DNA of 64,000 bases, taken from Chloroflexota bacterium. Its GTDB lineage: Bacteria > Chloroflexota > Limnocylindria > Limnocylindrales > CSP1-4. Made by a program: the position numbers and the translations under genes. Shown piece after piece: positions 9,113 through 46,300 of the stretch. Each line of letters starts with the position of its first letter. Within the stretch, counting starts at the first letter, position 1. The notes under the pieces were generated by a model. That model saw only the letters and a program-made list of their open reading frames with translations, did not search any database and was not told where the DNA came from. Location: positions 621 through 64,620 of the forward strand of contig PLOC01000111.1 of NCBI GenBank assembly GCA_003141955.1, read 5' to 3'.

Positions 9113-10011
9113 TGAGCGCGCCGAAGATCAGCAGCGACCTGCTCGGCGCCATCGGCGGCGTGCCCCGGCCCGACGTTGACGTGGTGGTCGACGCCCGCGA
9201 CGTCAACAAGTGGTTCGGCCGGCTGCACGTGCTCAAGGACGTCAGCGTGCAGGTCAAGCGCCAGGAGACGGTCGTCATCATTGGCCCTTCGGGGTCGGGC
9301 AAGACGACCTTCATCCGCTGCATCAACCATCTGGAGAAGATTCAGAGCGGCCGCATCTTCGTCAACGGCCACCTCATCGGCTACCGCGAAGTGGCCGCTG
9401 CCGGCCGAATGCGGCGTCCCATCGCGAAGCTGCCCATCGTCGGGCGGGGCTTTGGCAAGCCTGCTGGCGCCACGAAGCTGGTCGAGGACAAGGAGAAGAA
9501 CATCGCCCTGCAGCGCCAGGAGATCGGCATGGTCTTCCAGCGCTTCAACCTGTTCCCGCACATGACAGCCCTTGAGAACATCATCGAGGCTCCGATCGGT
9601 GTGCGAGGCATGGACCACGACGAAGCCGTGGCGGTCGGCCGGGCGCTGCTCGAGCGCGTCGGCCTGGCAGCCAAGGAGAAGGTCTACCCCAACCAGCTTT
9701 CCGGGGGGCAGCAGCAGCGCATCGCCATCGCCCGCGCCCTGGCGATGAAGCCCGCGCTGATGCTCTTCGACGAGCCGACCTCCGCCCTCGACCCCGAGAT
9801 GATTGGCGAGGTGCTGGAGGTCATGAAGGAGCTGGCCCGCGAAGGCATGACCATGATCGTGGTTAGCCACGAGATGGGCTTCGCCCGCGAGGTGGCCAAC
9901 CGGGTTGTCATGATGGACGACGGCGTGGTCGTCGAAGAGGGCGTGCCGGACCAGATGTTCAGCGCGCCAAAGCAGGACCGCACGAAGGCGTTCCTCTCGA
10001 AGATCCTGTAG
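9112..10011 (+). CDS. Amino-acid ABC transporter ATP-binding protein
   Basis: Walker [53 protein letters not shown]. Confidence 0.96.
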
Positions 10012-10303
10012 TTCGCGGCGGGGCGCGGGGCGGCGGCGCGACCTCTCGAACGATAGTCGCATGCCTTTCGTCCAGCAGCTTCGGCAGCTCGGCGCCGCGC
10101 CACCGTGGCGCCACGGGCAGCGAAACGCCCACGGCAGTCGCGACTCGGCGGACCATCCGGAGTGAGGTTCCTTCGAGACCGCCGTTCTCGATTGCCGATA
10201 CCACGGCCGAGCTCACGCCAGCCGCCGCCGCGACATCCGACTGCCGCAGGCCGCGCTTGATCCGCACCACCCTGATGACTGAGCCTACCCGAACGTCATC
10301 CAC
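9959..10303 (-). pseudogene. XRE-family HTH protein, apparently truncated
   Basis: VRVGSVIRVVRIKRGLRQSDVAAAAGVSSAVVSAIENGGLEGTSLRMVRRVATAVGVSLPVAPRWRGAELPKLLDERHATIVREV then low-complexity tail overlapping the ABC ATPase 3' end. Confidence 0.6.
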
Positions 10304-10400
10304 GCCGGGCAGCAGGACGAGGGCCCATTTGACCGCGCTTATCTGGCGGCACGCGGGAGCCACAGGGGCGCGCAGGAGGCCGGGACTTACGGGCGGTCGC

Positions 10401-11495
10401 TCAGTCGAGGCGGTAGATGATTCGCCCCTCGGCGTCGATGGTCGGGCCGCGCCGGACGACCTCTTCGGACGCGGGCGACGACGCCAGAACCCCGGCCGCT
10501 CTCTCCGCCCGCTCCGCGCGCCGGGCCTCCGCGTCCGGCACCTGGTCGCGGGCGTGATAGCTCGATCGAACAAGCGGCCCCGACTCCACGTGGCGAAAGC
10601 CCAGCGCCAGCGCCTCCTCGCGCATCTCGGCGAACTCGTCGGGGTGGTAGTAGCGCTCGACACGGAGGTGCCGAGCCGAGGGCCGCAGGTACTGCCCCAC
10701 GGTCAGGATGTCGCAGTCGACCGCGCGCAGGTCCACGAACGTCTGGTGCAGCTCCGGCCGCGTCTCCCCCAGCCCGACCATGATCGAGGACTTGGTGTGG
10801 ACCGCCGCGGCTCCGGCCGCCCCGCCGAGCTCGCGCGCGTACGCCTTCGCCCGCTCGAGAACCCCGAGCGATCGGTCGTAGCGAGCCCTCTTCCGGACCG
10901 GCTTCTGCAGCCGCGCGACCGTCTCCACGTTGTGGTTCAGGATGTCCGGCCCGGCCGCCATCACCGTCCGGAGCGGCGCCTCCTCCCCGTTGAAGTCGGG
11001 GATCAAGACCTCGACGCCCATGCCGGGGCACGCGTCCCGCAGCCGCCGGATCGTCTCGGCGAACACGCCCGCTCCCCCATCGGCCAGGTCGTCGCGGGCC
11101 ACGCTCGTGACCACGACGTGATCCAGCCCCAGACCGCAGATGGCCTCGGCCACGCGGCGCGGCTCGTCCAGGTCGTGGAGGGTCGGCTTGCCCGTCTTCA
11201 CCGCGCAGAACCCGCAGGCGCGGGTGCAGGTATCCCCGAGAATCATGATCGTGGCGGTTCGCTGGTCCCAGCACTCGCCCACGTTCGGACACTGGGCTTC
11301 CGCGCAGACGGTGTGCAGCGAGAGCCCGTTGAGCAGCCGCCGAACCTCGTGGTACGTCTCGCCCGAAGGTATCCGCGCCTTGATCCACTCGGGGTGCCGG
11401 CGCAGGGCCACGGACCCGTCGGCTGCGGGCTCGAAGGTACCGCCGGCCATGGCTATGGTCGGCGGGAGGATGCGCGAGGGCGGCCGACTCTCCAT
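10401..11495 (-). CDS. lipA: Lipoyl synthase
   Basis: RTATIMILGDTCTRACGFCAVKTGKP radical-SAM CxxxCxxC; CAEAQCPNVGECW. Confidence 0.96.
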   Translation of the reverse strand: MESRPPSRILPPTIAMAGGTFEPAADGSVALRRHPEWIKARIPSGETYHEVRRLLNGLSLHTVCAEAQCPNVGECWDQRTATIMILGDTCTRACGFCAVKTGKPTLHDLDEPRRVAEAICGLGLDHVVVTSVARDDLADGGAGVFAETIRRLRDACPGMGVEVLIPDFNGEEAPLRTVMAAGPDILNHNVETVARLQKPVRKRARYDRSLGVLERAKAYARELGGAAGAAAVHTKSSIMVGLGETRPELHQTFVDLRAVDCDILTVGQYLRPSARHLRVERYYHPDEFAEMREEALALGFRHVESGPLVRSSYHARDQVPDAEARRAERAERAAGVLASSPASEEVVRRGPTIDAEGRIIYRLD

Positions 11496-11504
11496 GGATC
11501 GAGT

Positions 11505-13067
11505 CTAGTAGATCGGCGTGTCGGGGCCGACAGCCTCGAGCCTGCAGATCACGTCGCGGACGAACCGGCCCACCTGTGCCCCGTCGGTGGCGCGGTGGTC
11601 GTACCCGGCAACCAGGTTCATCATCGAGCGGATGGCGATGACGTCCCCTTCGGGCGTCTCGCGGACGACCGGCCGCTTCACGACGGCCTCGGTCGTGAGG
11701 ATGCAGACTTCGGGCGTGTTGAGGATCGGGACGGTCAGGATCGAGCCGAACCAGCCGGTGTTGTCGATCGTGAAGGTGCCGCCCTGCAGGTCTTCGAGGC
11801 GTAGCCTGTTCGCTCGGGCTCGAGCGGCAAGATCCTGGATCGCCCGATTGATGCCGTTGATCGAGAGCTGGTCGGCGTCGTGGATGACAGGGACGATGAG
11901 ACCGTTATCCACGGCGATGGCGATGCCGACGTTGATGCGGCGCTTGCGGAGCAGGCCGCCTTCGGTGTAGTGGGCGTTCAGGTCGGGGTTCGCCATCAAC
12001 CCTTCGACGACGGCCTTGACCACGAACGGCAGGAAGCTGAGTCCGACGCCCTCGCGAGCCTTGTAGGCCGCACCGAGCGCGGCTCGAAGCGTGACGACGG
12101 CCGTCATGTCGGCTTCGAACGTGCTGTGGGCGACCGGGACCGCGGCGGCTCGGGTCATCTGCGCGGCGACGCCACGGCGCATCTGATTGTGCGGAATCAG
12201 AACCTCGTCCTGGCCCGGCTCCCAGGCGACGGCGGACGTCGACGGCGACGGGGTCGAAAGGACCGACGGTGCCAGGCCCGGCGCATGACTCGGGACGCCG
12301 ACCCCGGGTGCCAGATAGACCGACGGTGACACGGCGGCCTGGGCAGCCGCAGTCGCGGCTCCACGCCGCGTGGCGCCAGCGGGAATGGCGGCGCCGAGGC
12401 CCGCGGCGGCGGCGGTTCGCCCGCGCTCCACGAACTTCATCACGTCGTCGCGGGTGATCCGGCCGGAGTGGCCCGTCCCGACGATCTGTACAGGAGCAAG
12501 GCCGTGCTCTCGCAGCATGCGGCGGACCGAGGGGGTCATGCGCGCGTCCGGATCGCCGGCCTGGGCGTCGGGCGAGGCCTGCATCACCGGCACGAGAGCC
12601 GGCGGAGTGGCGAGAGTAGTGGAAGTGGCGGAGACCGTGGAGAGTCGCGCGGCCCGCGGCGCCGTCGCGGACGCCGCCGGCGAGGTCGTGGCCACGGCCG
12701 GCGTCCCGGGAGCCGCCGCACTCGCGGCACCCGCGGCAGCTCCCCGGGGAGCTGCCCCTGCCCCTGCTACTTCCTCGATCTCGGCGATCTCGACGTTGTA
12801 CGGGACCGTCTGCCCCTCTTCGACGAGGATCCTGCTCAGCACGCCGGCGAAGGGCGACGGGACCTCGGCGTTGACCTTGTCGGTGATGACCTCCAGCAGC
12901 GGCTCGTCCCTGGCGACGCTGTCACCGGGGTGCTTGAGCCACTTCCCGATCGTCCCCTCGGCCACGCTCTCGCCGAGCTGGGGCATCGTCACCTTGGCCA
13001 CGTATCGCTCCTCCTGCGAGGTCTCCCTGATGACGGGCTCGCCGCCGTCGCCGCTAGTTTGGCCCAT
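11505..13067 (-). CDS. 2-oxoacid dehydrogenase dihydrolipoyllysine-residue acyltransferase (E2)
   Basis: Lipoyl domain (VITDKVNAEVPSPFAGVLSRIL), E3-binding domain (TPSVRRMLREHGLAPVQIVGTGHSGRITRDDV), catalytic domain (NTGWFGS...YDHRATDGAQVGRFVRDV). Confidence 0.95.
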   Translation of the reverse strand: MGQTSGDGGEPVIRETSQEERYVAKVTMPQLGESVAEGTIGKWLKHPGDSVARDEPLLEVITDKVNAEVPSPFAGVLSRILVEEGQTVPYNVEIAEIEEVAGAGAAPRGAAAGAASAAAPGTPAVATTSPAASATAPRAARLSTVSATSTTLATPPALVPVMQASPDAQAGDPDARMTPSVRRMLREHGLAPVQIVGTGHSGRITRDDVMKFVERGRTAAAAGLGAAIPAGATRRGAATAAAQAAVSPSVYLAPGVGVPSHAPGLAPSVLSTPSPSTSAVAWEPGQDEVLIPHNQMRRGVAAQMTRAAAVPVAHSTFEADMTAVVTLRAALGAAYKAREGVGLSFLPFVVKAVVEGLMANPDLNAHYTEGGLLRKRRINVGIAIAVDNGLIVPVIHDADQLSINGINRAIQDLAARARANRLRLEDLQGGTFTIDNTGWFGSILTVPILNTPEVCILTTEAVVKRPVVRETPEGDVIAIRSMMNLVAGYDHRATDGAQVGRFVRDVICRLEAVGPDTPIY

Positions 13068-13626
13068 CTGGCGTGAACCGGGCTAGCTGCGCGATTCACA
13101 GCCCACTCTCCGGGTTGCGTGCACGATGCCCGGCGGCCCCGGGTTTGCCGCGGCTCCGGCTACCGGCGGCTCCGGGTTGCTGCGGCTCCGGGTTGCTGCG
13201 ACCCGTTGCCCATCTTCGCCCGGGGCGAAGCTCGGCAGCCCAGTGCCCGATTCCGTTGTCTAATTCCGTCCGAGGCGATGGTAAGCGATCGGCGCCTCGA
13301 TCCAAGCCGGGGCCGCGCGGCCGGCAAGCGTGGATTCGGCCGGGGCGAAGCCCAAGACGCGCGCCCAGGACCCCGAATACGCGCCCGTCAGCACCTACCA
13401 TCGCCCCCGGTGATGTTGGGCAAGAAGAACCCGCGTGGCAGGCTCCCAGGCCCGGACGTGGAGCCACGCCACGCCCGCCGCCGACGCGCCGCCGCCCGTC
13501 TCGCACCGCGGCCCGCTACGATCAGCACCGAGTGTGGCCGCCGCGGCGCCGCCCATCATCGTTCCGCCGCGGCGCCCGCCCATCATGCTTTCGCAGAGCC
13601 CGCTTCGGAGCCCCAAGGAGGATCGA

Positions 13627-14403
13627 GTGGCCAGGACGATCGTGCTGATCCACGGGGCGTGGATGACGCCACTCTGCTGGGATGGCTTCGTCCGGCGCTA
13701 CGAGGCCAGGGGATATCGCTGCATCGCCCCGGCCTGGCCCTACGACGACCGCCCCGTGCCCGAGCTGCGCCGCTCGCCCGCCCCGGAGCTGGCGCGCGTC
13801 GGCTTCGGCGAGCTGACCGACCACTATGCCCGCATCATCGAAGCGCTGCCGGAGCCGCCGATCATCATTGGCCACTCGATGGGCGGCCTGGTGGCGCAGC
13901 AGCTGCTGGACCGCGGCCTCGGCACCGCCGGCGTGGCAATCGATCCCGCGCCCCCGCGCGGCGTCCTGGCCGGTCCTCGCGCCACGTGGTCCGGCCTGCC
14001 GACCGTCCTGGCCTGGGGCAGCTGGCGGAAGGTTCGACCGATGTCGTTTCGGCGCTTTGCCTGGAGCTTCTGCCACACCCTGGAAGCGGACGAGCAGGTC
14101 GCCGCCTACCAGCGCCAGGTCGTTCCGACGCCCGGCCGGCTGTACTGGCAGCTGCTGTTCGGCCGGGATACGAAGGTCGACTTCCGCAACGGCAAGCGCG
14201 CTCCACTGTTGATCACCGTGGCCTCCAGGGACCGCGCCGTCGATGCCTCCACGATCCGATCGAACTACCGCAAGTACCGCCACTCCCCCGCCGTCACCGA
14301 GCTACTCGAGTTCCCCGACCGAACCCACTGGCTCATCGCCGCCCCCGGCTGGGAAGAGGTCGCCGACGCCATCCTCGACTGGGTCGCGAAGCGGTCGAGG
14401 TAG
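13627..14403 (+). CDS. alpha/beta hydrolase
   Basis: GTG start after AAGGAGGA; IVLIHGAWMTPLCWDGFVRRYEARGYRCIAPAWP...IIIGHSMGGLVAQQLL. Confidence 0.88.
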   Translation: MARTIVLIHGAWMTPLCWDGFVRRYEARGYRCIAPAWPYDDRPVPELRRSPAPELARVGFGELTDHYARIIEALPEPPIIIGHSMGGLVAQQLLDRGLGTAGVAIDPAPPRGVLAGPRATWSGLPTVLAWGSWRKVRPMSFRRFAWSFCHTLEADEQVAAYQRQVVPTPGRLYWQLLFGRDTKVDFRNGKRAPLLITVASRDRAVDASTIRSNYRKYRHSPAVTELLEFPDRTHWLIAAPGWEEVADAILDWVAKRSR

Positions 14404-14421
14404 CCGCGCCGCCTAGCCGGG

Positions 14422-15930
14422 CTAGGCGTTGATCTGGCGGCCCGAGACGGCCATCGCCGCCTCGCCCATGATCTCGGCCAGGGTTGGGTGCGGATGCGTA
14501 GCTGCGCCGATCTCCCAGGCCATGGCTTCGAGCGTCATGCCGAGCGCGGCCTCCGCGATGAGATCCGTCACGGCCGGCCCGATCATATGCACGCCCAACA
14601 CCTCGTCGGTGGTTGCGTCCGCGATCACCTTGGCGAAGCCCTCCGTCTCGCCCACGATCACGGCCTTGGCGATCGCGGCGAAGTTGAAGACGCCCTTCTT
14701 GACGGCAATTCCGCGTGCCTCGCACTGCTGCTCGGTCAGGCCGATCGAGGCGACCTGCGGGTGCGTGTACGTCGCGCGCGGCTGGTGGTCGTAGTCGATC
14801 GCCTCGGGCCCCTCGCCGGCGATCTCGTGGGCCGCGACGATCCCCTCGTGCGCAGCCACGTGAGCGAGCATCAGCCCGCCGATCACGTCGCCGATGGCGT
14901 AGACGTGGGGCTCGGCGGTGCGCATCCAGCCGTCCACCTTCACGTACCCGCGCTCGAGCTCGACCTTCGTCGTCTCCAGGCCGATCCCCTCGGTGTTCGG
15001 CGCGCGCCCGGTCGCCATGAGCAGCTGCTCGACGCGCAGCTCTTCGGAGACACCGCCGTCCGGGCCAACGAGCATCGAGACGCCATCGGCCGTGACCTTC
15101 ACCGAGGCCGCGTCGAAGCGGGCTTTCGTGACAATCTTGATGCCGCGCCGGGTGAAGCTGCGCTCAAGGGCGGCACTGACGTCACGGTCCTCGAGCGGGA
15201 CGATCGCCGGCAGGTATTCGAGCAGCGTGACGCTGACGCCCAGGTCGTGGTACAGAGAGGCGAACTCGGAGCCGACCGCGCCGGCGCCGACGATAGCGAT
15301 GCTCTTCGGCAGGTCTGCCTTGGTCGTTACGTCGTCCGAGGTGATGATTCGGTGGCCGTCGGGCACGATGCCGGGCAGGCTCTTGACGCGGCTGCCGGTG
15401 GCCAGGATCACGTTTCGGGCGTGAAGGACCCGTTCCCCGCCCGCGCCGGGTGCACCGTCCTCGCCGTTGAGCGCCATGCGGATCGCGCCGGCGCCTTCGA
15501 GGCGACCGCGCCCCGCGACCCACGTCACCTTGTTCTTGTCGACCAGGCCCTTCAGGCCGGTCCACATCCGCTTCACGACCTGGTCCCGCCGCCGGGCGAT
15601 CGTTTCGAAGTCGAAGCCGGGCTGGCCTTCCAGCAGGATCCCGAACTCCTTCGCTTTCTTGAGGCGCGCGAACAGCTCGGCCGATTCGAGGAGCGCCTTG
15701 GTCGGAATGCAGCCGACGTGGAGGCACGTCCCGCCGATCTTGCCCACGTCAACGAGCGCGACGTTCATGCCCAGTTGAGCGGCCCGAAAAGCGGCGGTGT
15801 AGCCACCGGTGCCTGCGCCGAGGACGATCAGGTCGAAGTCGTTGCTGGAGCCTGCGGCCATGGCTGTCGGCCTCGCGCTGCGGATCGGGGTGGATGTCCG
15901 AAGCGTACCCGGCGAGCCGGGAACGAGCAA
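14422..15930 (-). CDS. lpdA: Dihydrolipoyl dehydrogenase (E3)
   Basis: VLGAGTGGYTAAFRAAQLGMNVALVDVGKIGGTCLHVGCIPTKALLESAE. Confidence 0.96.
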   Translation of the reverse strand: MLVPGSPGTLRTSTPIRSARPTAMAAGSSNDFDLIVLGAGTGGYTAAFRAAQLGMNVALVDVGKIGGTCLHVGCIPTKALLESAELFARLKKAKEFGILLEGQPGFDFETIARRRDQVVKRMWTGLKGLVDKNKVTWVAGRGRLEGAGAIRMALNGEDGAPGAGGERVLHARNVILATGSRVKSLPGIVPDGHRIITSDDVTTKADLPKSIAIVGAGAVGSEFASLYHDLGVSVTLLEYLPAIVPLEDRDVSAALERSFTRRGIKIVTKARFDAASVKVTADGVSMLVGPDGGVSEELRVEQLLMATGRAPNTEGIGLETTKVELERGYVKVDGWMRTAEPHVYAIGDVIGGLMLAHVAAHEGIVAAHEIAGEGPEAIDYDHQPRATYTHPQVASIGLTEQQCEARGIAVKKGVFNFAAIAKAVIVGETEGFAKVIADATTDEVLGVHMIGPAVTDLIAEAALGMTLEAMAWEIGAATHPHPTLAEIMGEAAMAVSGRQINA

Positions 15931-15973
15931 CCGAGCGGCCCGGACCGGCGCGGCGCGGAAGGTCGGACACGAA

Positions 15974-16000
15974 ACGACCCGAGTACGGGGCCCGGGTCGT
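15974..16000 (-). terminator. Hairpin downstream of zinc-ribbon gene
   Basis: acgacccg...cgggtcgt inverted repeat just after stop at 16021; poor U-tract. Confidence 0.45.
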
Positions 16001-16020
16001 CGATCCGAAGAGAACTGGGG

Positions 16021-16344
16021 TCAGTTGCCGCGCGCGCTCCGGAAACAGTCGCTGCAGTAGACCGGCTTGCCGGTGGTCGGCTGGAACGGGACCTCGGTGG
16101 CGCGTCCGCACTTGCTGCACGTGGCGGGGAACATCTGGCGGGGGCCTCGATCGTACTCGCCGCTGCCGTAGCCGCCGCCGCGGCCGGCGCCGCCCTCCGG
16201 ACGCGCGGCTTTGCGCGCAGTACGGCAGGGGCCGCATCGCTTGGGTTCGGAGAATCCCCGCTGCGCGTAGAAGTCCTGCTCGCTCGCGGTAAATACGAAC
16301 TGCTGGCCGCAGTCGGCGCAGACCAGAATCTTGTCCGTGTACAC
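16021..16344 (-). CDS. CxxC zinc-ribbon protein (paralog A)
   Basis: GTG start; MYTDKILVCADCGQQFVFTASEQDFYAQRGFSEPKRCGPCRTARKA...MFPATCSKCGRATEVPFQPTTGKPVYCSDCF. Confidence 0.9.
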   Translation of the reverse strand: MYTDKILVCADCGQQFVFTASEQDFYAQRGFSEPKRCGPCRTARKAARPEGGAGRGGGYGSGEYDRGPRQMFPATCSKCGRATEVPFQPTTGKPVYCSDCFRSARGN

Positions 16345-16703
16345 GAGAAACTGGAACTCCTCTCAGTAGCCGCTCCCTCCGTGTCCTCGCGGCAACGCGT
16401 GAGAGGCCCGGTCGTCGTGCTACCTGGACGCTCGCTCACAGTCAGCCCGTGAGCTTTGCGGCGGGATTGTACGTCCGGCGTTACCGCGTGCATAGGGTCC
16501 GGCAAGTCCAGGTTCGGGTACCGGCGCCGGGACCCGCATTGGTAGTTGACAAGTCTTGTGTCGCTGGTAAGAAACTACCCGACACACAACGGCACCCTTG
16601 GCGGGTTCAACGCAACGCGGACCCGGGCCAGTGTCCCCGGCAGCAGAGCCCTTTCTCGGTCGAAGCAATCCGTGTCCAGACAAGCCGATTGGATCTGAAC
16701 GCC

Positions 16704-18035
16704 ATGAGCCACAGCCATCGCCGCCTCGCCGGGCTGGCCTCGGTCGCAGCCTTCGTCCTGGTGGCCAGCTTCGGTGGAATCTCGCCGGCAGCGGCCGCCA
16801 CGGCCGCCCCCGTGGCGACCTTTGTCACGCCCATCCCCGGACTGACCACGGTGACCCAGACGGGCTCATTCGGTGCGAGCTGGACGATCGCAAAAGGCGT
16901 GTCGGTCAGCTCGACCGCCGTGGTAGTTCAAACGTCGCGCCCGTTGGGCGCAACCGGCTGCGACCTCCGCTGGCTCCCCGTCGGATCGGGGTCCGCATCC
17001 GGCACTTCGTATTACGTCGCTGGGCTCCTGCCCAACCGGTGCTATCGATTCCTGCTCATGCTCACCACCGGCGCCGGAACGCAGACCGTGACTTCGTCGA
17101 CCTTCATCCCCGCGCCGGCCGGCCTGGGCCCCACGGCCGACTTCACGAACCCATTCGCGGACGGGCTTGTCGTCTACGAGACGGCGGCCACGATCGGCTG
17201 GGCGCAGCGGGACACCTTCGGCTCCACGATCACCTCGCGCAGCCTGTCCGAGCAGTCGGCCGCGGCGGTTGGCGGCGCCTGCACGGGCGTGGCATGGTCG
17301 AGCCCGACGAATCTCTCGTTCACCGGGTACTCGGTCAACCGGACCCTACAGCCCTCTTTCTGCTACCGATACCTGCTGACGCTCCAGGACGCCGCCGGCT
17401 TCCGAAGCGAGCTCACATCGGGCGCGATGCTCGAGGCGACCGGGCTGCCCGCCTGGACGGGCACTCTCGACTTCTACCGGCCCAGCGCCTTCGCCTCGCA
17501 GGCAACGACCACCTGGTGCGTGGCCGCGAGCAGCCAGATGATGCTGAACATGATCCTCGGCCAGAGCGACTCATCGAGCAACTCCCAGGCCACGTACATC
17601 GCCTACGGCCAGGCCCACGACGGAGGCAATTACCCGAGCGGGACGAACCCGGCCGGCTGGTCCGCGATCCTCGACCGGTACGGCGGCGCCACCTACTCGG
17701 TGCAGACTTTTGGCGACAGCACGTCGGCCTTGAAGCAGGCCGCCCTTCGAATGCGTCAGACGAACAGGCCGGTGGGGATGCTGGTCTGGAAGGGCCGCCA
17801 TGCCTGGGTCATGGACGGCTTCACCGCCACCGCCGACCCGGCGACCACGAGCAACTTCACGATCACCTCGGTCGACGTCGCCGGGCCGCTCTACCCGCGG
17901 CCGATGAACTCGTCCGGATACGACCTGCCGCCCGACACGCAGCTCACACCTGCCCAGCTGGCCACGTACTTCCTGCCATACACCGACTCGATCGTGAAGA
18001 CCTGGAACGGCAAGTACGTGTTGATCGTGCCGTAG
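16704..18035 (+). CDS. Secreted papain-like (C39-like) cysteine peptidase
   Basis: Signal peptide MSHSHRRLAGLASVAAFVLVASFGGISPAAA; TTWCVAASSQMMLNMI (Cys) and GRHAWVMDGF (His). Confidence 0.75.
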   Translation: MSHSHRRLAGLASVAAFVLVASFGGISPAAAATAAPVATFVTPIPGLTTVTQTGSFGASWTIAKGVSVSSTAVVVQTSRPLGATGCDLRWLPVGSGSASGTSYYVAGLLPNRCYRFLLMLTTGAGTQTVTSSTFIPAPAGLGPTADFTNPFADGLVVYETAATIGWAQRDTFGSTITSRSLSEQSAAAVGGACTGVAWSSPTNLSFTGYSVNRTLQPSFCYRYLLTLQDAAGFRSELTSGAMLEATGLPAWTGTLDFYRPSAFASQATTTWCVAASSQMMLNMILGQSDSSSNSQATYIAYGQAHDGGNYPSGTNPAGWSAILDRYGGATYSVQTFGDSTSALKQAALRMRQTNRPVGMLVWKGRHAWVMDGFTATADPATTSNFTITSVDVAGPLYPRPMNSSGYDLPPDTQLTPAQLATYFLPYTDSIVKTWNGKYVLIVP

Positions 18036-18074
18036 CGAGCGCAGCGAACGGCGAAACCGACAGCGGATCCGGGC

Positions 18075-18971
18075 TCAGAGTCGATCGGCTTCCTGCGGGA
18101 TGCCGATCGGTGCCACCAGCACCCTGCCCGCGACGGCGGCGCCGCGTCGCGCCAGCAGCCCCGTCTTGGGCCGGTGGAAAGTGACGGTCAGATGCGCCCG
18201 AACGACTGGGTCGGAGAGGTCGCCGCTGGTCAGGTCGACGGCGGTCGGACAGTCGACCGCGATGATCGGGATGCCCGCGCGCCGCGCCCTGGCGATCAGC
18301 TCGACGGCGCTGCGGATCGGCTCGCGCAGCGGCCCGGCGGTACCGGTCCCGAGCAGCGCGTCCACGACCACGGCCGCCTTCTCGATGCCCTGAGCGAGGA
18401 TCGCCACGTCCCGGGGGACGGGGGTGTGGACCCGTTCGACCCGGTCCTCGGCGTCGAGGCGGTCCCAGTTGCGGGCTGCGTCCCTGCCCGCCGGGCGCCC
18501 CTCGCCGGCGACCAGCGCGACCACGACCTTGGCCCCGTTTCGAGCCAGGTGACGCGCCGCGACGAAGCCGTCGCCGCCGTTGTTGCCGGGTCCGCACAGG
18601 ACCAGGATCGGCCCCCTGCCCCAGCGTTCCGTCTCAACGGCCAGGGCACGAGTGGCCGCGGCCACCGCGCAGCCTGCCTGCTCCATCAGGCGCGTGCCCG
18701 TCACTCCCATCGCCTGGGCCCGCCGGTCGGCGCCGCGCATGGCCTCGGCTCCGATCGCGGAGGACTCCATCGACCGGGACCAGCGGGCCGCCAGCTCATC
18801 CAGGCCCAGCGTGAACAGCGTGGCGTCGTCCGCGGGGAGTGGCGGCACCCGCCACGGATCCGCCTCCGGGGTTCCGTCGGCGGACTGGGCCGCATCGGCA
18901 GGAGTGGCGTCGGCGGGCCGAGCGGCAGCGGCCGCCCGGCGGTTCGAGGCGTCGCGTCTCGGCGTGGGCAT
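18075..18971 (-). CDS. nnrE: NAD(P)H-hydrate epimerase (YjeF N-terminal domain)
   Basis: RLMEQAGCAVAAATRAL...ILVLCGPGNNGGDGFVAARHL...VVVDALLGTGTAGPLREP. Confidence 0.9.
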   Translation of the reverse strand: MPTPRRDASNRRAAAAARPADATPADAAQSADGTPEADPWRVPPLPADDATLFTLGLDELAARWSRSMESSAIGAEAMRGADRRAQAMGVTGTRLMEQAGCAVAAATRALAVETERWGRGPILVLCGPGNNGGDGFVAARHLARNGAKVVVALVAGEGRPAGRDAARNWDRLDAEDRVERVHTPVPRDVAILAQGIEKAAVVVDALLGTGTAGPLREPIRSAVELIARARRAGIPIIAVDCPTAVDLTSGDLSDPVVRAHLTVTFHRPKTGLLARRGAAVAGRVLVAPIGIPQEADRL

Positions 18972-40519: not shown

Positions 40520-40783
40520 GTGGATCGGCTGGGTATCCGCCCGTCCGCGCTAAGGCACGGGATCAGTGAAGAACGCATGCGCCATGTGGTCAGGACCTGC
40601 CCGATGCCGCTTGATCATCCAGACGGAAGCGGCCAGGTGATCTACCTCGGGCCGGACCAACGCGGGGTCCCGCTTGAAGTAGCCGGCTTCCAGGACGACA
40701 ACGGACACCTCACGATCATCCATGCGATGCGACTGCGCCCCAGCTACAAGTCGGCATACGAGGAGGTGATGAGATGGCTGTGA
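40520..40783 (+). CDS. Putative toxin of a two-gene TA-like module (uncharacterised family)
   Basis: MDRLGIRPSALRHGISEERMRHVVRTCPMPLDHPDGSGQVIYLGPDQRGVPLEVAGFQDDNGHLTIIHAMRLRPSYKSAYEEVMRWL; overlaps downstream RHH gene. Confidence 0.65.
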   Translation: MDRLGIRPSALRHGISEERMRHVVRTCPMPLDHPDGSGQVIYLGPDQRGVPLEVAGFQDDNGHLTIIHAMRLRPSYKSAYEEVMRWL

Positions 40784-41082
40784 GAACCAAGAACGGTCGG
40801 GTCGTCATTGACGCCGATCTGGATCGGATGGCGGTTGAGGCCGAGGCCGGCTATGACCTCTCGACCTGGAAGCGCCGGGCCGGTCGCCCCTCTCTGAGCG
40901 CGACGAACACGGGTGCTCACTCCCCTCGCATCACAACTCGAGTGCCTGAGGAACTCCGGGCCAGGGTCGCGTCTCGCGCGTCGTCAGAGGGCAAGAGCGT
41001 TAGCGCTGTGATGCGCAGCCTCCTCGAGGCCTACGCCGGAGAAGACCCCGTCGCTCGAAGGTCGCCCGGGCATCGCGGCTAG
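40774..41082 (+). CDS. Ribbon-helix-helix (CopG-like) antitoxin-like protein
   Basis: C-terminal RITTRVPEELRARVASRASSEGKSVSAVMRSLLEAYAG; overlaps upstream ORF. Confidence 0.8.
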   Translation: MAVRTKNGRVVIDADLDRMAVEAEAGYDLSTWKRRAGRPSLSATNTGAHSPRITTRVPEELRARVASRASSEGKSVSAVMRSLLEAYAGEDPVARRSPGHRG

Positions 41083-41104: not shown

Positions 41105-41407
41105 ATGCTCACCATCAGATCGGTCGAAACGCTGGACGACTACTGGCTTCGACTGACGTTGTCAGGCAGGACGACGATCGAGCGAGAGGTCAGAGATCTT
41201 CTGTGAGGCCCCGTCTTCGAGCGCCTGCGGACGAGCTACGCCGAGTTCCGACGGGCCCGCGTGCGGCATGGGACTGTCGAATGGCCCGGCGACCTGGACC
41301 TGGCCCCCGAGGCACTCATCTGGGACGGTCCGGTACCGCACGACTCGTCCCGGCGACCGCCCGCTCGACCCGTCCTCCACCACCCAACGGGGGAGCCGGT
41401 TCGCTGA
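41105..41407 (+). pseudogene. DUF2442-like gene with in-frame TGA
   Basis: MLTIRSVETLDDYWLRLTLSGRTTIEREVRDLL-TGA-GPVFERLRTSYAEFRRARVRHGTVEWPGDLDLAPEALIWDG; the TGA (41204-41206) sits where the family usually has W before GPVF. Confidence 0.7.
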
Positions 41408-41443: not shown

Positions 41444-42493
41444 CTACAGTGACTTATCAGCTTCGGCAGGTGGGAGAGTCGGCGGGGCCTTTCCCTCGGC
41501 CAGCCCGCCTCGGGTCCAGTACACCCGCTCGTCCGTGGCCCTTGCGCGCGCCTCGCGCGCGAGCTGGAGCTGGGCCCGACGGACCGGAGGCTGGAATCGC
41601 TCTTGGAGTTCCGCGGCGAGCGGCGAGGCCGGCGCGGCACTTGCGGATGATTCGCGTGGCGGCGGCACAGAGTATTCGTAGAGAGTTGGCACGGGCGCCG
41701 ACGCGGGACGGAATCGGTCGCTCGCGAGGCTAGCCAGCGCGAGGACATCGGCGGGCTCAAGCCGCTGCGGAGCCTTCCGGAGCGTCTTCACCAGCCCGCG
41801 CCCGTCCACGATGGACACTCCCTGAGCCGATGAGCCGAAGAAGGGCAGGTCGGCGCGATGGACGCACAGGATCGCGCGGACCTGCAGCCGTCTGCGTTCG
41901 AGGTCGTCGCCGAGGGCAACCGCGACGGCGAGGGCTTCTCGCTTCGCCTCTTCGACCGTCTGCGGCGTCCTGCAGGAGCCGCCGACATAGACCTCGCTCC
42001 CTCGAACCCGGAGCTTGCCCCGGAACGACTTCGTCTCCACGATCGCCACACCGGGCGGCCCGATGACGATGTGGTCGATGTTGGCCAAAGAGCCAGGGAC
42101 CCGGCGGTCGTGGAGGATGACGAAGCCTTCGATCTTGAGCTGCTCAAGGGCTCGAGCCGTCAACACTTCTCCATCGGCACCAATCGCCCAGGACCATGGG
42201 CCGTGCGGGGGCGCCACGGCCTCTACGATGACCGCCAGGCCGGCGACTGCGAGGAACATCGCAACGAGCGGGAGACCTGCCATCACGGCTGCCGCCGCGA
42301 ACACGGCGGTCGCGCCGCTGATCCCAAGGAGCCACGGTCGCCGCACGTCCAGGCGTTCGCATTGTTCTCGCATCAGGCGTTCGTGCCGGGCGCGGGCAGA
42401 CGCTCCCGCCGCCGACGCGTCATCTCCGAGTGGTCGTCCCTCGATCAATCTTGCGCATCTCCGTCGCCCGGAATGGCCTCGATCAAGATGCAC
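41444..42493 (-). CDS. Membrane-associated NERD (nuclease-related) domain protein
   Basis: Two adjacent TM segments then GEVLTARALEQLKIEGFVILHDRRVPGSLANIDHIVIGPPGVAIVETKSFRGKLRV with D...E-x-K intact. Confidence 0.85.
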   Translation of the reverse strand: MHLDRGHSGRRRCARLIEGRPLGDDASAAGASARARHERLMREQCERLDVRRPWLLGISGATAVFAAAAVMAGLPLVAMFLAVAGLAVIVEAVAPPHGPWSWAIGADGEVLTARALEQLKIEGFVILHDRRVPGSLANIDHIVIGPPGVAIVETKSFRGKLRVRGSEVYVGGSCRTPQTVEEAKREALAVAVALGDDLERRRLQVRAILCVHRADLPFFGSSAQGVSIVDGRGLVKTLRKAPQRLEPADVLALASLASDRFRPASAPVPTLYEYSVPPPRESSASAAPASPLAAELQERFQPPVRRAQLQLAREARARATDERVYWTRGGLAEGKAPPTLPPAEADKSL

Positions 42494-42611
42494 GGGCGCC
42501 TGCGGCGCGACAAGATAGCCGATGGTCCCGGCCGAGAACGATCCGTCCCAGCGGTGTGCGACACTGCTTTCCGGCCGCGGGACGTCACTTCGCGGCCGGG
42601 CAGGAGGGCGC

Positions 42612-44357
42612 GTGGAGCCGCACGGGAAGGCCGCTGAGCACGTAGTCGCCGAGCGACTGCGGGCCGCCCTCCCCTCCCCCGAGTTCCGCCTCTACCCGAA
42701 CGCCGAGTGGCTCGGTCCTATGCGCCCCGGCGGGCCGGCCCGCGACGGCGAGGCGGACCTCGTGGTCGTCCACGAGGAGCGCGGGATCCTCGTTCTGGAG
42801 GTGAAGTCGGGCACCCCGTCGCGCGACAGCCAGGGGCGCTGGTGGATCGGCGGGCACCAGCTCGACCGCGACCCCTTCACCCAGGCGCGCGACAGCAAGC
42901 ACCAGCTCGTCCGCAAGCTCGAGGCGCTGCCCGACTGGCCCCCGCGGACGCAGCCGCGAGCCGGTCACGCGATCGCCCTGCCCGACGTCGACCTGGCCAG
43001 CCTGCCGCGCGGCCACGTCCTGCTCGGCGCCGACGCCCCACGCGAGCTCGTCCTCGACGCCGAGGCTCTCGAGACGCCCGAGTCGATCCGCCGCTGGGTC
43101 GAGCGCGCCTGCGCCTACTGGCTCGGCGACGGGATGAGGGGCGCCCCGCTCGGAGCCCTCGGCGTCCGCCTCATCGACGAGATCCTCGCCCCGACCTGGT
43201 CGCTGCACCGCCTGGTCCGCGGCCGGATCGAGGACGATCGCGCCGAGCTGTTGGCCGCGAGCACCGAGCAGGAGCTGATCCTCAACCGCACCCGGCGGCT
43301 CCGCCGCCTGGAGGTCGTCGGACCCGCGGGCAGCGGGAAGTCGATGCTGGCCACCGCGAAGGCCCGCCGGCTGGCGCGCGAGGGCTATCGGACGCTCTTC
43401 GTCTGCTTCAACCAGCGCCTGGCGACGAGCCTCATCCGCGAGCTCGAGAATGCGCCCGCGCCGGCACCGGCCGCGCACGGCCCGACGCCGGCCGCACCTG
43501 GCCCGACGGGGCTCGACGTGACGACCTTCCACCGGCTCTGCGAGCGCCTCGGCACCCAGGCAGGAGTCCTCCCGGGCCGCCCCACGCCGATCCCGCAGGC
43601 CTGGTGGGATGAAACCCTGCCGGCCGCCCTCGACGCGGCGATCGACGCACTCCCGCGCGAGCGCTACGGGGCGATCATCATCGACGAGGGCCAGGACTTC
43701 GAGGCCCGCTGGTTTGAGCTGCTGGAGCACCTGCTCGCCGGCCCCGACGGCGTCTTCTGGGTCTTGCACGACCCCGGCCAGGCTCTCATCCGGACCGACG
43801 TCGTCGCCAGCCTCGGCCTGGAATGCCACGTGCTCTTCGAGAACCACCGCAACCCGGGCTCGATCGCGCAGCTGGCCGCCCGCTTCTACCACGGCGGCGA
43901 GGAGACGATCGCGCGCCCGACGGCCGAGCGGCGGTACACGGTCATCAGCGCCCAAGCCGGGGCCGCCACCCTTGACGCGCTGCGCAGGACCCTCCACCGC
44001 CTCGTCGAGGAGGAGCGGGTCGCGCCTTTCCGGATCGCCGTGCTCTCGGGAGGCTCGGCCGGCTCGAGCGAGGTCTGGCGCTATCGGCGGTTTGGCAACG
44101 CCCCCCTTGAGAACGCCGCCCTCTACGACGACGGCAGCTCGCGCGGTCTCGCGCCCGAGGACGTCCCCGACGAACCCGACGAGGTCCTGTTCGAGACGAT
44201 CCGCCGCTTCAAGGGCCTGGAGCGCGAGGTCGTCGTTCTCGTCGAGCTCCCGACCGACGGCGACCGCCTGGACGAGCTGCTCTACGTCGGGCTCACTCGC
44301 GCCACGACCGAACTCGTCGTCATCGCGCCGCCGGAGCTCGCGCGTCGGCTGGGGTGA
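42612..44357 (+). CDS. NERD-domain / UvrD-like (SF1) helicase fusion protein
   Basis: GTG start after GGCAGGAGGG; NERD DGEADLVVVHEERGILVLEVKSG; Walker A VGPAGSGKSM, Walker B YGAIIIDEGQDF, motif VI-like YVGLTRATTELVVI. Confidence 0.88.
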   Translation: MEPHGKAAEHVVAERLRAALPSPEFRLYPNAEWLGPMRPGGPARDGEADLVVVHEERGILVLEVKSGTPSRDSQGRWWIGGHQLDRDPFTQARDSKHQLVRKLEALPDWPPRTQPRAGHAIALPDVDLASLPRGHVLLGADAPRELVLDAEALETPESIRRWVERACAYWLGDGMRGAPLGALGVRLIDEILAPTWSLHRLVRGRIEDDRAELLAASTEQELILNRTRRLRRLEVVGPAGSGKSMLATAKARRLAREGYRTLFVCFNQRLATSLIRELENAPAPAPAAHGPTPAAPGPTGLDVTTFHRLCERLGTQAGVLPGRPTPIPQAWWDETLPAALDAAIDALPRERYGAIIIDEGQDFEARWFELLEHLLAGPDGVFWVLHDPGQALIRTDVVASLGLECHVLFENHRNPGSIAQLAARFYHGGEETIARPTAERRYTVISAQAGAATLDALRRTLHRLVEEERVAPFRIAVLSGGSAGSSEVWRYRRFGNAPLENAALYDDGSSRGLAPEDVPDEPDEVLFETIRRFKGLEREVVVLVELPTDGDRLDELLYVGLTRATTELVVIAPPELARRLG

Positions 44358-44465: not shown

Positions 44466-45302
44466 ATGGCGAACAAGAAGTACCTACAAGGCCGAGCGAC
44501 CGAGCTTGTCGCCCACTTTGCCGCTCTGACTCCGCCGGTATTCACCGTCTCGGAGGCAGCCGCATACCTTGGCCTCACGTCCCCTGCCGCGACGAGCATG
44601 CTCGGGGATCTCGTCTCCCGCGGCTGGATCGTCCGGCATCGAAGCGGCGTCTTTGAGATCGCTCCCCTGTGGGCCACCCCTGACGCCCCCTACCAACCCG
44701 ATCGCTTCGCTGCCCTTACCGAGTGGGTTCGTGAGCCGTATTACGTTGCCTTCCAGTCCGCCTGTGAGATCCGGGACTGGACTGAGCATCCCGTCCGAAA
44801 CAGGTTGTGGATTGCTGTCCCGCGGACCTACCGCTGGACTCCGACGACGGCTCGAGACCGGATCACGTTCGTCGAAATGGCGCCCAACCGCTTCACTTGG
44901 GGAATCACGAAGCATTGGGTGGGCGAACGAGCCGTGCCCATCAGCGACCCGGAGCGCACCATCCTCGACTGCCTGCACCTCCCTCGCCACGGCGGCGACA
45001 TCTCCGAGGTGGCGCGTGTCCTACGCCGGGCCTGGTCTGACCTCGACAATAGTCGACTCCTCGATCACGCCGATCTTCTGGGGATAGACGCCGTGCGCCG
45101 GCGCCTGGGATTCCTCATCGAAGTCCTGAACCTCCCGAACGGCGAGTCGGTTACCAGCGGCCTGCGCGAGCAGATGTCACACGCCCGTCGGTCGCCCGTT
45201 CTGCTCGACCCGGATCTCCCGGTGGATGGTCCGGTCGATCGCGCCTGGCGGGTCCGGGTCAACGTGGACAGGGTGGAGCTTGCGGAGGCAGGACAGACGT
45301 GA
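44466..45302 (+). CDS. abiEi: AbiEi-family type IV antitoxin / transcriptional repressor
   Basis: Winged HTH VSEAAAYLGLTSPAATSMLGDLVSRGWIVRHRSGVFEI; ISDPERTILDCLHLPRHGGDISEVARVL; start moved from 44406 to ATG 44466. Confidence 0.85.
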   Translation: MANKKYLQGRATELVAHFAALTPPVFTVSEAAAYLGLTSPAATSMLGDLVSRGWIVRHRSGVFEIAPLWATPDAPYQPDRFAALTEWVREPYYVAFQSACEIRDWTEHPVRNRLWIAVPRTYRWTPTTARDRITFVEMAPNRFTWGITKHWVGERAVPISDPERTILDCLHLPRHGGDISEVARVLRRAWSDLDNSRLLDHADLLGIDAVRRRLGFLIEVLNLPNGESVTSGLREQMSHARRSPVLLDPDLPVDGPVDRAWRVRVNVDRVELAEAGQT

Positions 45303-46300
45303 TCGGACGGCCCGAGATCCAGCGCCTGGCGCAGGCCGGTGGCGTGGATGAACGCACTCAGGAGCGCGACTATCTCCTCACCTGGATGCTGGCTGCTCAC
45401 TCTGCGGCCAACTACGGGCTCGTCTTCAAGGGCGGCACCTGCCTCCGGCAGTGCTACTTTCGCGGCTACCGCTATTCCGAGGATCTGGACTTCACGCTCC
45501 CGGCGGGTTCAAGCGCGCCGCCGCTCATCGAGATCATTGGGTCGTGGTGCGCCTGGGTCAGCGAGAACTCGGGCATCCGCGCGACAGCGTCGCCCGATGA
45601 TCAGAGCCCAGACCAGAAAGGCTGGCTCTCGTTCCGAGGGCCCCTTGGAGCCCAGCGAGACAAGGCGGTCAAGGTCGATGTCGCATTCGACGAGCACATC
45701 GAGGACAAGGTGGTGTCCCGCCCGCTGCTGTCCGACTACACCGACATCGCCGACCAAGAGCACCCGGTCATGGCCTACTCCCTGGTGGAGATGTGGGCTG
45801 AGAAGACCAGGTCGCTGCTACAACGGGCCGAGCCGCGTGACCTCTACGACCTGGCAATGCTGGCAGCTCACGACAAGGGTCTTCCGGCAAGAGCCCACGG
45901 CGTGTATGTCCGAAAGGCGGAGCTCAAGAAGCTCGACCCCAACGCACTCGCCGAGCGGCTCGACCGACGAAAACCGGTGCTTGCGAAACTGGCTGGCGAG
46001 GAAGGATTCGAACCTTCAATCCCCTGTTCCAGAGACAGGTGCCTTACCGTTAGGCCACTCGCCAGCGAGGTGCCAGAGTTTACCGGATTCCCGCCGCGGG
46101 CGAGCGCAGGTTTGTCCCGAACCTGGTCCGGCTCGCACCATCGGCCGGCTCGTTGGACCGCCGATGGCGGCGATCCCGAACATTTGTTCCACTACCGCGC
46201 CGGCCTGTGGTATAGTTGTTCAACGGCACCAGGAAGGTGCCGAAACCAAGCGGCACACGACACTCCCTCTCACTGGTTCTCGGCGAGAAAGGTTCGCTGA
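45299..46300 (+). CDS. abiEii: AbiEii/AbiGii-family nucleotidyltransferase toxin, C-terminus reads through a tRNA gene
   Basis: GLVFKGGTCLRQCYFRGYRYSEDLDFTL; VEMWAEKTRSLLQRAEPRDLYDLAML; GTGA overlap with abiEi; residues after LAKLA are translated antisense tRNA-Gln. Confidence 0.85.
   Translation: MIGRPEIQRLAQAGGVDERTQERDYLLTWMLAAHSAANYGLVFKGGTCLRQCYFRGYRYSEDLDFTLPAGSSAPPLIEIIGSWCAWVSENSGIRATASPDDQSPDQKGWLSFRGPLGAQRDKAVKVDVAFDEHIEDKVVSRPLLSDYTDIADQEHPVMAYSLVEMWAEKTRSLLQRAEPRDLYDLAMLAAHDKGLPARAHGVYVRKAELKKLDPNALAERLDRRKPVLAKLAGEEGFEPSIPCSRDRCLTVRPLASEVPEFTGFPPRASAGLSRTWSGSHHRPARWTADGGDPEHLFHYRAGLWYSCSTAPGRCRNQAAHDTPSHWFSARKVR
45990..46064 (-). tRNA. tRNA-Gln (CTG anticodon), CCA encoded
   Basis: Acceptor TGGCGAG/CTCGCCA, anticodon arm CCTGT-CTCTGGA-ACAGG, T-arm GAAGG-TTCGAAT-CCTTC, then G-CCA. 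Confidence 0.95.

Follow-up and report, generated by a model that had tools for sequence, protein, structure and literature searches.

NERD is a PD-(D/E)xK-like nuclease domain, and SF1A helicases translocate on single-stranded DNA. The Nhi-like system is a single-protein nuclease-helicase, and in Gabija the UvrD-like SF1 helicase GajB works with GajA. PMC10952713 lists NERD domains for Mokosh I and for Nhi-like systems (the latter after Millman et al. 2022). In DISARM, the PLD nuclease DrmC usually follows the DUF1998 gene, and TALON, which occurs mainly in Chloroflexota, comprises a YprA-like protein and NERD (both PMC12458937).

The helicase encoded in our window, i.e., the whole 64,000-nt stretch of Chloroflexota DNA that was analyzed, combines a NERD domain with an SF1 helicase core, as do the PADLOC families RTasNERD-Hel (PDLC03813, labelled DRT) and C3a187 (PDLC01087, “NERD+UvrD”). 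These two are its best PADLOC profiles (1.5e-46 and 2.5e-26, respectively) as well as those of a plasmid homologue (L165). None of the genes flanking the window helicase is a reverse transcriptase or cas gene, and the RT or CRISPR association implied by the profile names is incidental to the protein family. The architecture is already known and the window copy adds one family member; our literature search found no paper on exactly this protein.

Like the Nhi-like anti-phage protein, the window helicase carries a NERD nuclease domain; none of its PADLOC matches at E<0.1 bears the Nhi name, in a library that may or may not hold an Nhi model. With Gabija it shares a UvrD-like SF1 helicase and its profile matches GajB structures, but its PADLOC matches to GajB are weak and no GajA is adjacent, the neighbors being a membrane-anchored NERD gene (TM-NERD) and AbiEi/AbiEii. 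Distant NERD-helicase relatives directly adjoin DrmB of DISARM or DruE of Druantia; between 34 and 52 kb of the window, no match to DrmA, DrmB, DruE or TmtA was found. TALON has the NERD nuclease and the phylum in common with the window copy, but no YprA homologue, TPR-CSD or TBP gene was recognized beside the latter. AddAB, TM0106-RecB-like and SbcCD proteins are genomic partners of the NERD-helicase within the class, yet the NERD-helicase has an N-terminal NERD nuclease and is neither an AddA nor an AddB homologue by NCBIfam; the adjoining AddA-like or RecB-like partner present in eight class relatives is absent beside the window copy. By its neighbors, the window copy belongs to none of DISARM, Druantia, TALON, Gabija or AddAB, and we assign it only to the protein family.

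The NERD-helicase gene and its locus

A first-pass annotation had described two divergent NERD genes about 120 bp apart, both with intact active sites and the second fused to a UvrD-like helicase, and had proposed them as an uncharacterized defense module bracketed by two TA modules, among decayed neighbors. Both ORFs lie where it placed them (Table 1) and exceed the Pfam NERD cut-off of 22.1 bits, with 53.8 bits (3.2e-14) for TM-NERD and 36.6 bits for the helicase ORF. Pfam also bears out the fusion, reporting UvrD_C_2 (above cut-off), UvrD-helicase and AAA domains. The NERD borders of the helicase correspond to residues 35–135 of the 611-aa ORF starting at 42522; GTG 42612 is the likely start because most homologues begin there. 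The spacing agrees with the annotation if TM-NERD starts at GTG 42493 (118 bp) and is 238 bp from ATG 42373. The genome, 2.8 Mb in 124 contigs and with Chloroflexi MAGs as its nearest named relatives, contains no NERD gene besides these two.

Table 1. Features around the two NERD genes (positions in the window).
Feature	Position	Strand	Remarks
Putative toxin/RHH pair	40520..41082	+	also in G050, 95% DNA identity
DUF2442 pseudogene	41105..41404	+	in-frame TGA; marks site common to G050, G036 and G037
Membrane-anchored NERD protein gene (TM-NERD)	41444..42493	-	349 aa from GTG 42493, or 309 aa from ATG 42373
NERD-SF1 helicase gene	42612..44357	+	581 aa, GTG start; upstream ORF extension to ATG 42522
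NERD domain of helicase protein	42624..42926 (approximate borders)	+	active site E47-x-D49 ... E63-x-K65
SF1 helicase core	43314..44327 (approximate borders)	+	Walker A GPAGSGKS, DEGQD, RRFKGLE, LLYVGLTRAT; Pfam AAA/UvrD
AbiEi	44466..45302	+	PADLOC AbiEi 1.1e-47
AbiEii	45299..45989	+	PADLOC AbiEii 7.5e-51, profile 1-224 of 260; native C-terminus missing
tRNA-Gln(CTG)	45990..46064	-	ARAGORN; right edge of variable region

Alignments showed that the helicase motifs are kept in 16–24 relatives. Across 16 of these, NERD residues E47, D49, E63 and K65, the Walker A residues and DE.QD of motif II are invariant, confirming the intact active sites, as are KG, Y and R of motifs V/VI. The gene is under purifying selection (dN/dS 0.23–0.29), with values of 0.26 against G033 and 0.23 against G003 for the whole protein and of 0.31 and 0.24, respectively, for its NERD part. 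These ratios average older branches and could conceal a recent loss of constraint; they suggest that selection maintains, or until recently maintained, both predicted activities of the protein. Its sequence profile matches PDB structures of PcrA, UvrD, Rep, SLFN11 and GajB. An AlphaFold model of moderate quality (mean pLDDT 67.9) retrieved SF1 helicases in Foldseek, SLFN11 first, with query-normalized TM-scores of at most 0.27; therefore, we claim no closer structural relative and did not use the model for classification.

Comparison with sister species showed that the helicase locus is a defense hot spot with fast turnover. In G050 (fen_1024), where asnA is 94% identical, the gene order is gatA, asnA, cupin, AAA_14/DUF4143, toxin/RHH, DUF2442, nucleotidyltransferase, helicase and a PDC-M19B-like gene; AbiE is absent from this locus, and the helicase is split by a frameshift, which is either real or an assembly error. 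In G036 and G037, the helicase is reduced to 3′ fragments, which lie at the same DUF2442 site and have as neighbors an EcoAI-type HsdR, HsdS, HsdM, type III Res/Mod, a DrmD-like SNF2 protein and SbcCD (HsdS, HsdM, Res and Mod identified by eye). Type I and type III restriction genes, the DrmD-like protein and SbcCD at this site, together with the embedding of the wider helicase family in defense operons, uphold the defense-island setting assumed from the window.

The flanks of the two NERD genes are partly degraded, as the first-pass annotation had noted. The DUF2442 pseudogene between the TA pair and TM-NERD, 81% identical to the intact G036 copy, has a single stop, and DUF4160, its upstream partner in G036, has no match in the window. 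On the other side, the AbiEii frame runs into tRNA-Gln. Homology with most congeneric loci starts again at this tRNA, as a rule precisely at its 3′ end (45990); on the far side, the congeneric genomes differ from one another, which marks a variable junction. A classical integrase island is not shown, since an att-site search at the tRNA found no second copy in the genome and no integrase. Of the proposed bracketing TA modules, AbiEi/AbiEii was confirmed, whereas the “toxin” ORF (40520–40783) matches no family in Pfam, NCBIfam or PADLOC and its RHH partner gives only a sub-threshold RHH match. G050 has a conserved copy of the small “toxin” ORF, and G051 has one near HsdR.

The two neighboring NERD genes

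Among 177 genomes of the class, the helicase was detected in 42 and TM-NERD in 20. These relatives all seem to be draft MAGs, whose fragmentary contigs can hide neighbors, and in each genome the searches scored candidates only up to a limited number. The class-wide NERD scan identified the window as the sole site with two NERD genes side by side. Viral contigs yielded no TM-NERD, and a plasmid search with TM-NERD retrieved ordinary NERD proteins only, mainly from Streptomyces. Hydropathy analysis indicates a single N-terminal hydrophobic hairpin in TM-NERD (residues about 53–97); its single-sequence structure model (pLDDT 46.5) was too poor for use.

A two-component immune module, in which TM-NERD would act as membrane-anchored nuclease beside the soluble nuclease-helicase, would fit the close divergent spacing and the presence of two intact NERD cores in a genome with no others. 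Moreover, about the last 36 bp of TM-NERD remain beside the G050 helicase, in front of an MNT-like nucleotidyltransferase cassette; therefore, the adjacency may be older than the species split, but was not kept. This loss from the closest locus counts against a module, though the G050 helicase is itself frameshifted. The distribution of the two genes has already largely refuted the module: they occur together in six class genomes, no better than the 4.7 expected by chance (p=0.33). Furthermore, neither the TM-NERD query nor a profile from 20 NERD sequences revealed a TM-NERD adjoining the helicase in 62 other helicase loci, whose flanks vary in length and include some short contigs. The only second NERD gene near a helicase outside the window, in G037, is non-TM, convergent and next to the 3′ helicase remnant. 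With neither an excess of co-occurrence, the annotation's own criterion, nor a recurrent divergent pair in other genomes, we regard the module proposed by the first-pass annotation as very improbable and drop it from the list of candidates as a false two-gene system. Its label “uncharacterized” still holds for function, but not for the architecture, which PADLOC already catalogues. TM-NERD itself we judge to be an ordinary, independent accessory gene and a chance neighbor of the helicase. Elsewhere, a TM-NERD relative (L109, G081:C41, 4682–10272) lies 1.8 kb from a CBASS-like set of SMODS nucleotidyltransferase, ThiF and Prok-JAB genes; G081 has five NERD copies.

Partners and possible role of the helicase family

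The patchy distribution of the helicase (42/177 class genomes) extends to the phylum, where it was found in 45 of 400 genomes. In eight loci of the class, the next gene downstream encodes either an AddA-like UvrD + PDDEXK protein (L088, L097, L099 and L108) or a fusion of TM0106-type RecB nuclease and SF1 helicase (L086, L087, L091 and L015). A rough binomial estimate, made without regard to common descent, puts this number of adjacencies far above chance expectation. Metallophos (SbcD-like) and SbcC-like genes come next in L084 and L097. In the latter, from a Chloroflexota MAG, NERD-helicase, AddA-like helicase-nuclease, SbcD-like and SbcC-like genes form an apparent operon (9307–18575), apparently a compact end-processing set. 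AddA-like genes and the helicase occur together in 14 of the 177 class genomes versus 6.6 expected (p=0.0008, phylogeny ignored); PDDEXK-only genes, which the AddA-like search catches near E 1e-60, were excluded from this count by hand. For many helicases of the class no partner could be identified, and in the phylum some are surrounded by metabolic genes.

More distant relatives (∼20–35% identity), from plasmids, largely alphaproteobacterial, and from IMG/VR contigs, are found next to other defense genes. DrmAB or DruE adjoins the helicase in 15 other loci, nine of them on plasmids or viral contigs. The NERD-helicases of L160, L163, L165, L167, L169, L170 and L171 directly follow DrmA-DrmB; DruE adjoins that of L161, and likewise in L104, L173, L175 and L184; TmtA adjoins that of L162, and a Cas7 gene is near that of L186. 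Since DrmC is usual after the DUF1998 gene in DISARM, the NERD-helicases there look like a substitute nuclease; our literature search found no paper stating such a replacement. In L174 and L177, genes for DUF6079 (about 1240 aa) and for an N6/N4 DNA methylase come after the NERD-helicase, possibly a BREX-like system variant. On a tree of 54 family members, AddA-adjacency needs four changes and DrmAB-adjacency at least three; thus, the partners have been exchanged. The NERD-helicases are a known, mobile family that attaches to many anti-phage and DNA-end-processing systems.

We favor, with a probability of about 0.6, that the window helicase is an orphan of this widespread, horizontally moving NERD-SF1 nuclease-helicase family in a defense hot spot. 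It is best read as a lone copy of a portable nuclease-helicase, predicted to degrade DNA in immunity or DNA-end processing. The analysis shows the domains and motifs, the purifying selection, the patchy distribution, the switching of partners and the lack of pairing; enzymatic activity, polarity, substrate and immune role are inferred. The SF1 motor would load on a DNA end or single-stranded gap and, with ATP, translocate on or unwind the DNA, feeding it to the active site of the N-terminal PD-(D/E)xK-like NERD domain. Cutting of the strand there would destroy unprotected foreign DNA or resect broken ends. Elsewhere, the protein may serve as nuclease arm of DrmA-DrmB, Druantia-like DruE, DUF6079-methylase, CRISPR, AddA/RecB-like or SbcCD sets. 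Non-self recognition would be supplied by the partner in the case of DrmAB, DruE or the methylase, and by free ends in the case of AddA/RecB-like proteins. Alone in the window, the helicase may work on ends or may itself be a relic; as no partner is left, it would either act alone or be heading for loss, as in the sister species.

The SbcCD and AddA contexts would also fit DNA repair without immunity. As an AddB-/RecB-like partner of AddA-like, TM0106-RecB-like or SbcCD proteins, the helicase would process double-strand ends and have no dedicated immune role, in agreement with the AddA-like, RecB-like or SbcD genes directly downstream in nine class loci and with the L097 operon, in which helicase, AddA-like, SbcD and SbcC genes follow each other. 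Nevertheless, a housekeeping repair gene would hardly be so patchy or decay so often, the partners are themselves patchy (AddA-like genes in 28/177 class genomes), DISARM-like, Druantia-like and CRISPR genes are associated with the wider family, and the window copy lacks such an adjoining partner, so that we consider a pure repair function unlikely. Even less probable is that the window gene is a non-functional relic, left over from a multi-gene system and still present only because its loss of function is recent: its ORF is full-length with all motifs intact, and dN/dS, averaged over older branches, is about 0.25 across the wider clade. In favor of a relic are the frameshifted or fragmentary sister copies, the decay or loss of AbiEii, DUF2442 and DUF4160 nearby, and the absence of a partner gene next to the helicase.

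Beyond the orphan reading of the window copy, the exchange of partners across the family is of greater interest and raises the question of whether one nuclease-helicase is an interchangeable effector of several unrelated immune systems. We tentatively propose, as a possibility still short of an even chance, that the NERD-SF1 helicase acts as a portable effector and has repeatedly changed partners from one defense system to another. It would replace DrmC behind DrmA-DrmB, join DruE, TmtA or DUF6079-methylase, and form, with AddA-like/TM0106-RecB-like helicase-nucleases and SbcCD in this Chloroflexota class, a DNA-degrading immune complex with two motors, of a type not described before; the window copy would be stand-alone. 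Constructs for phage challenge are at hand in the operons of class helicases with AddA-like/RecB-like genes and in the DrmA-DrmB-NERD-helicase operons of plasmids and viral contigs. Among the latter operons, in L160, L163, L165, L167, L169 and L170, several adjoin a 5mC methyltransferase.
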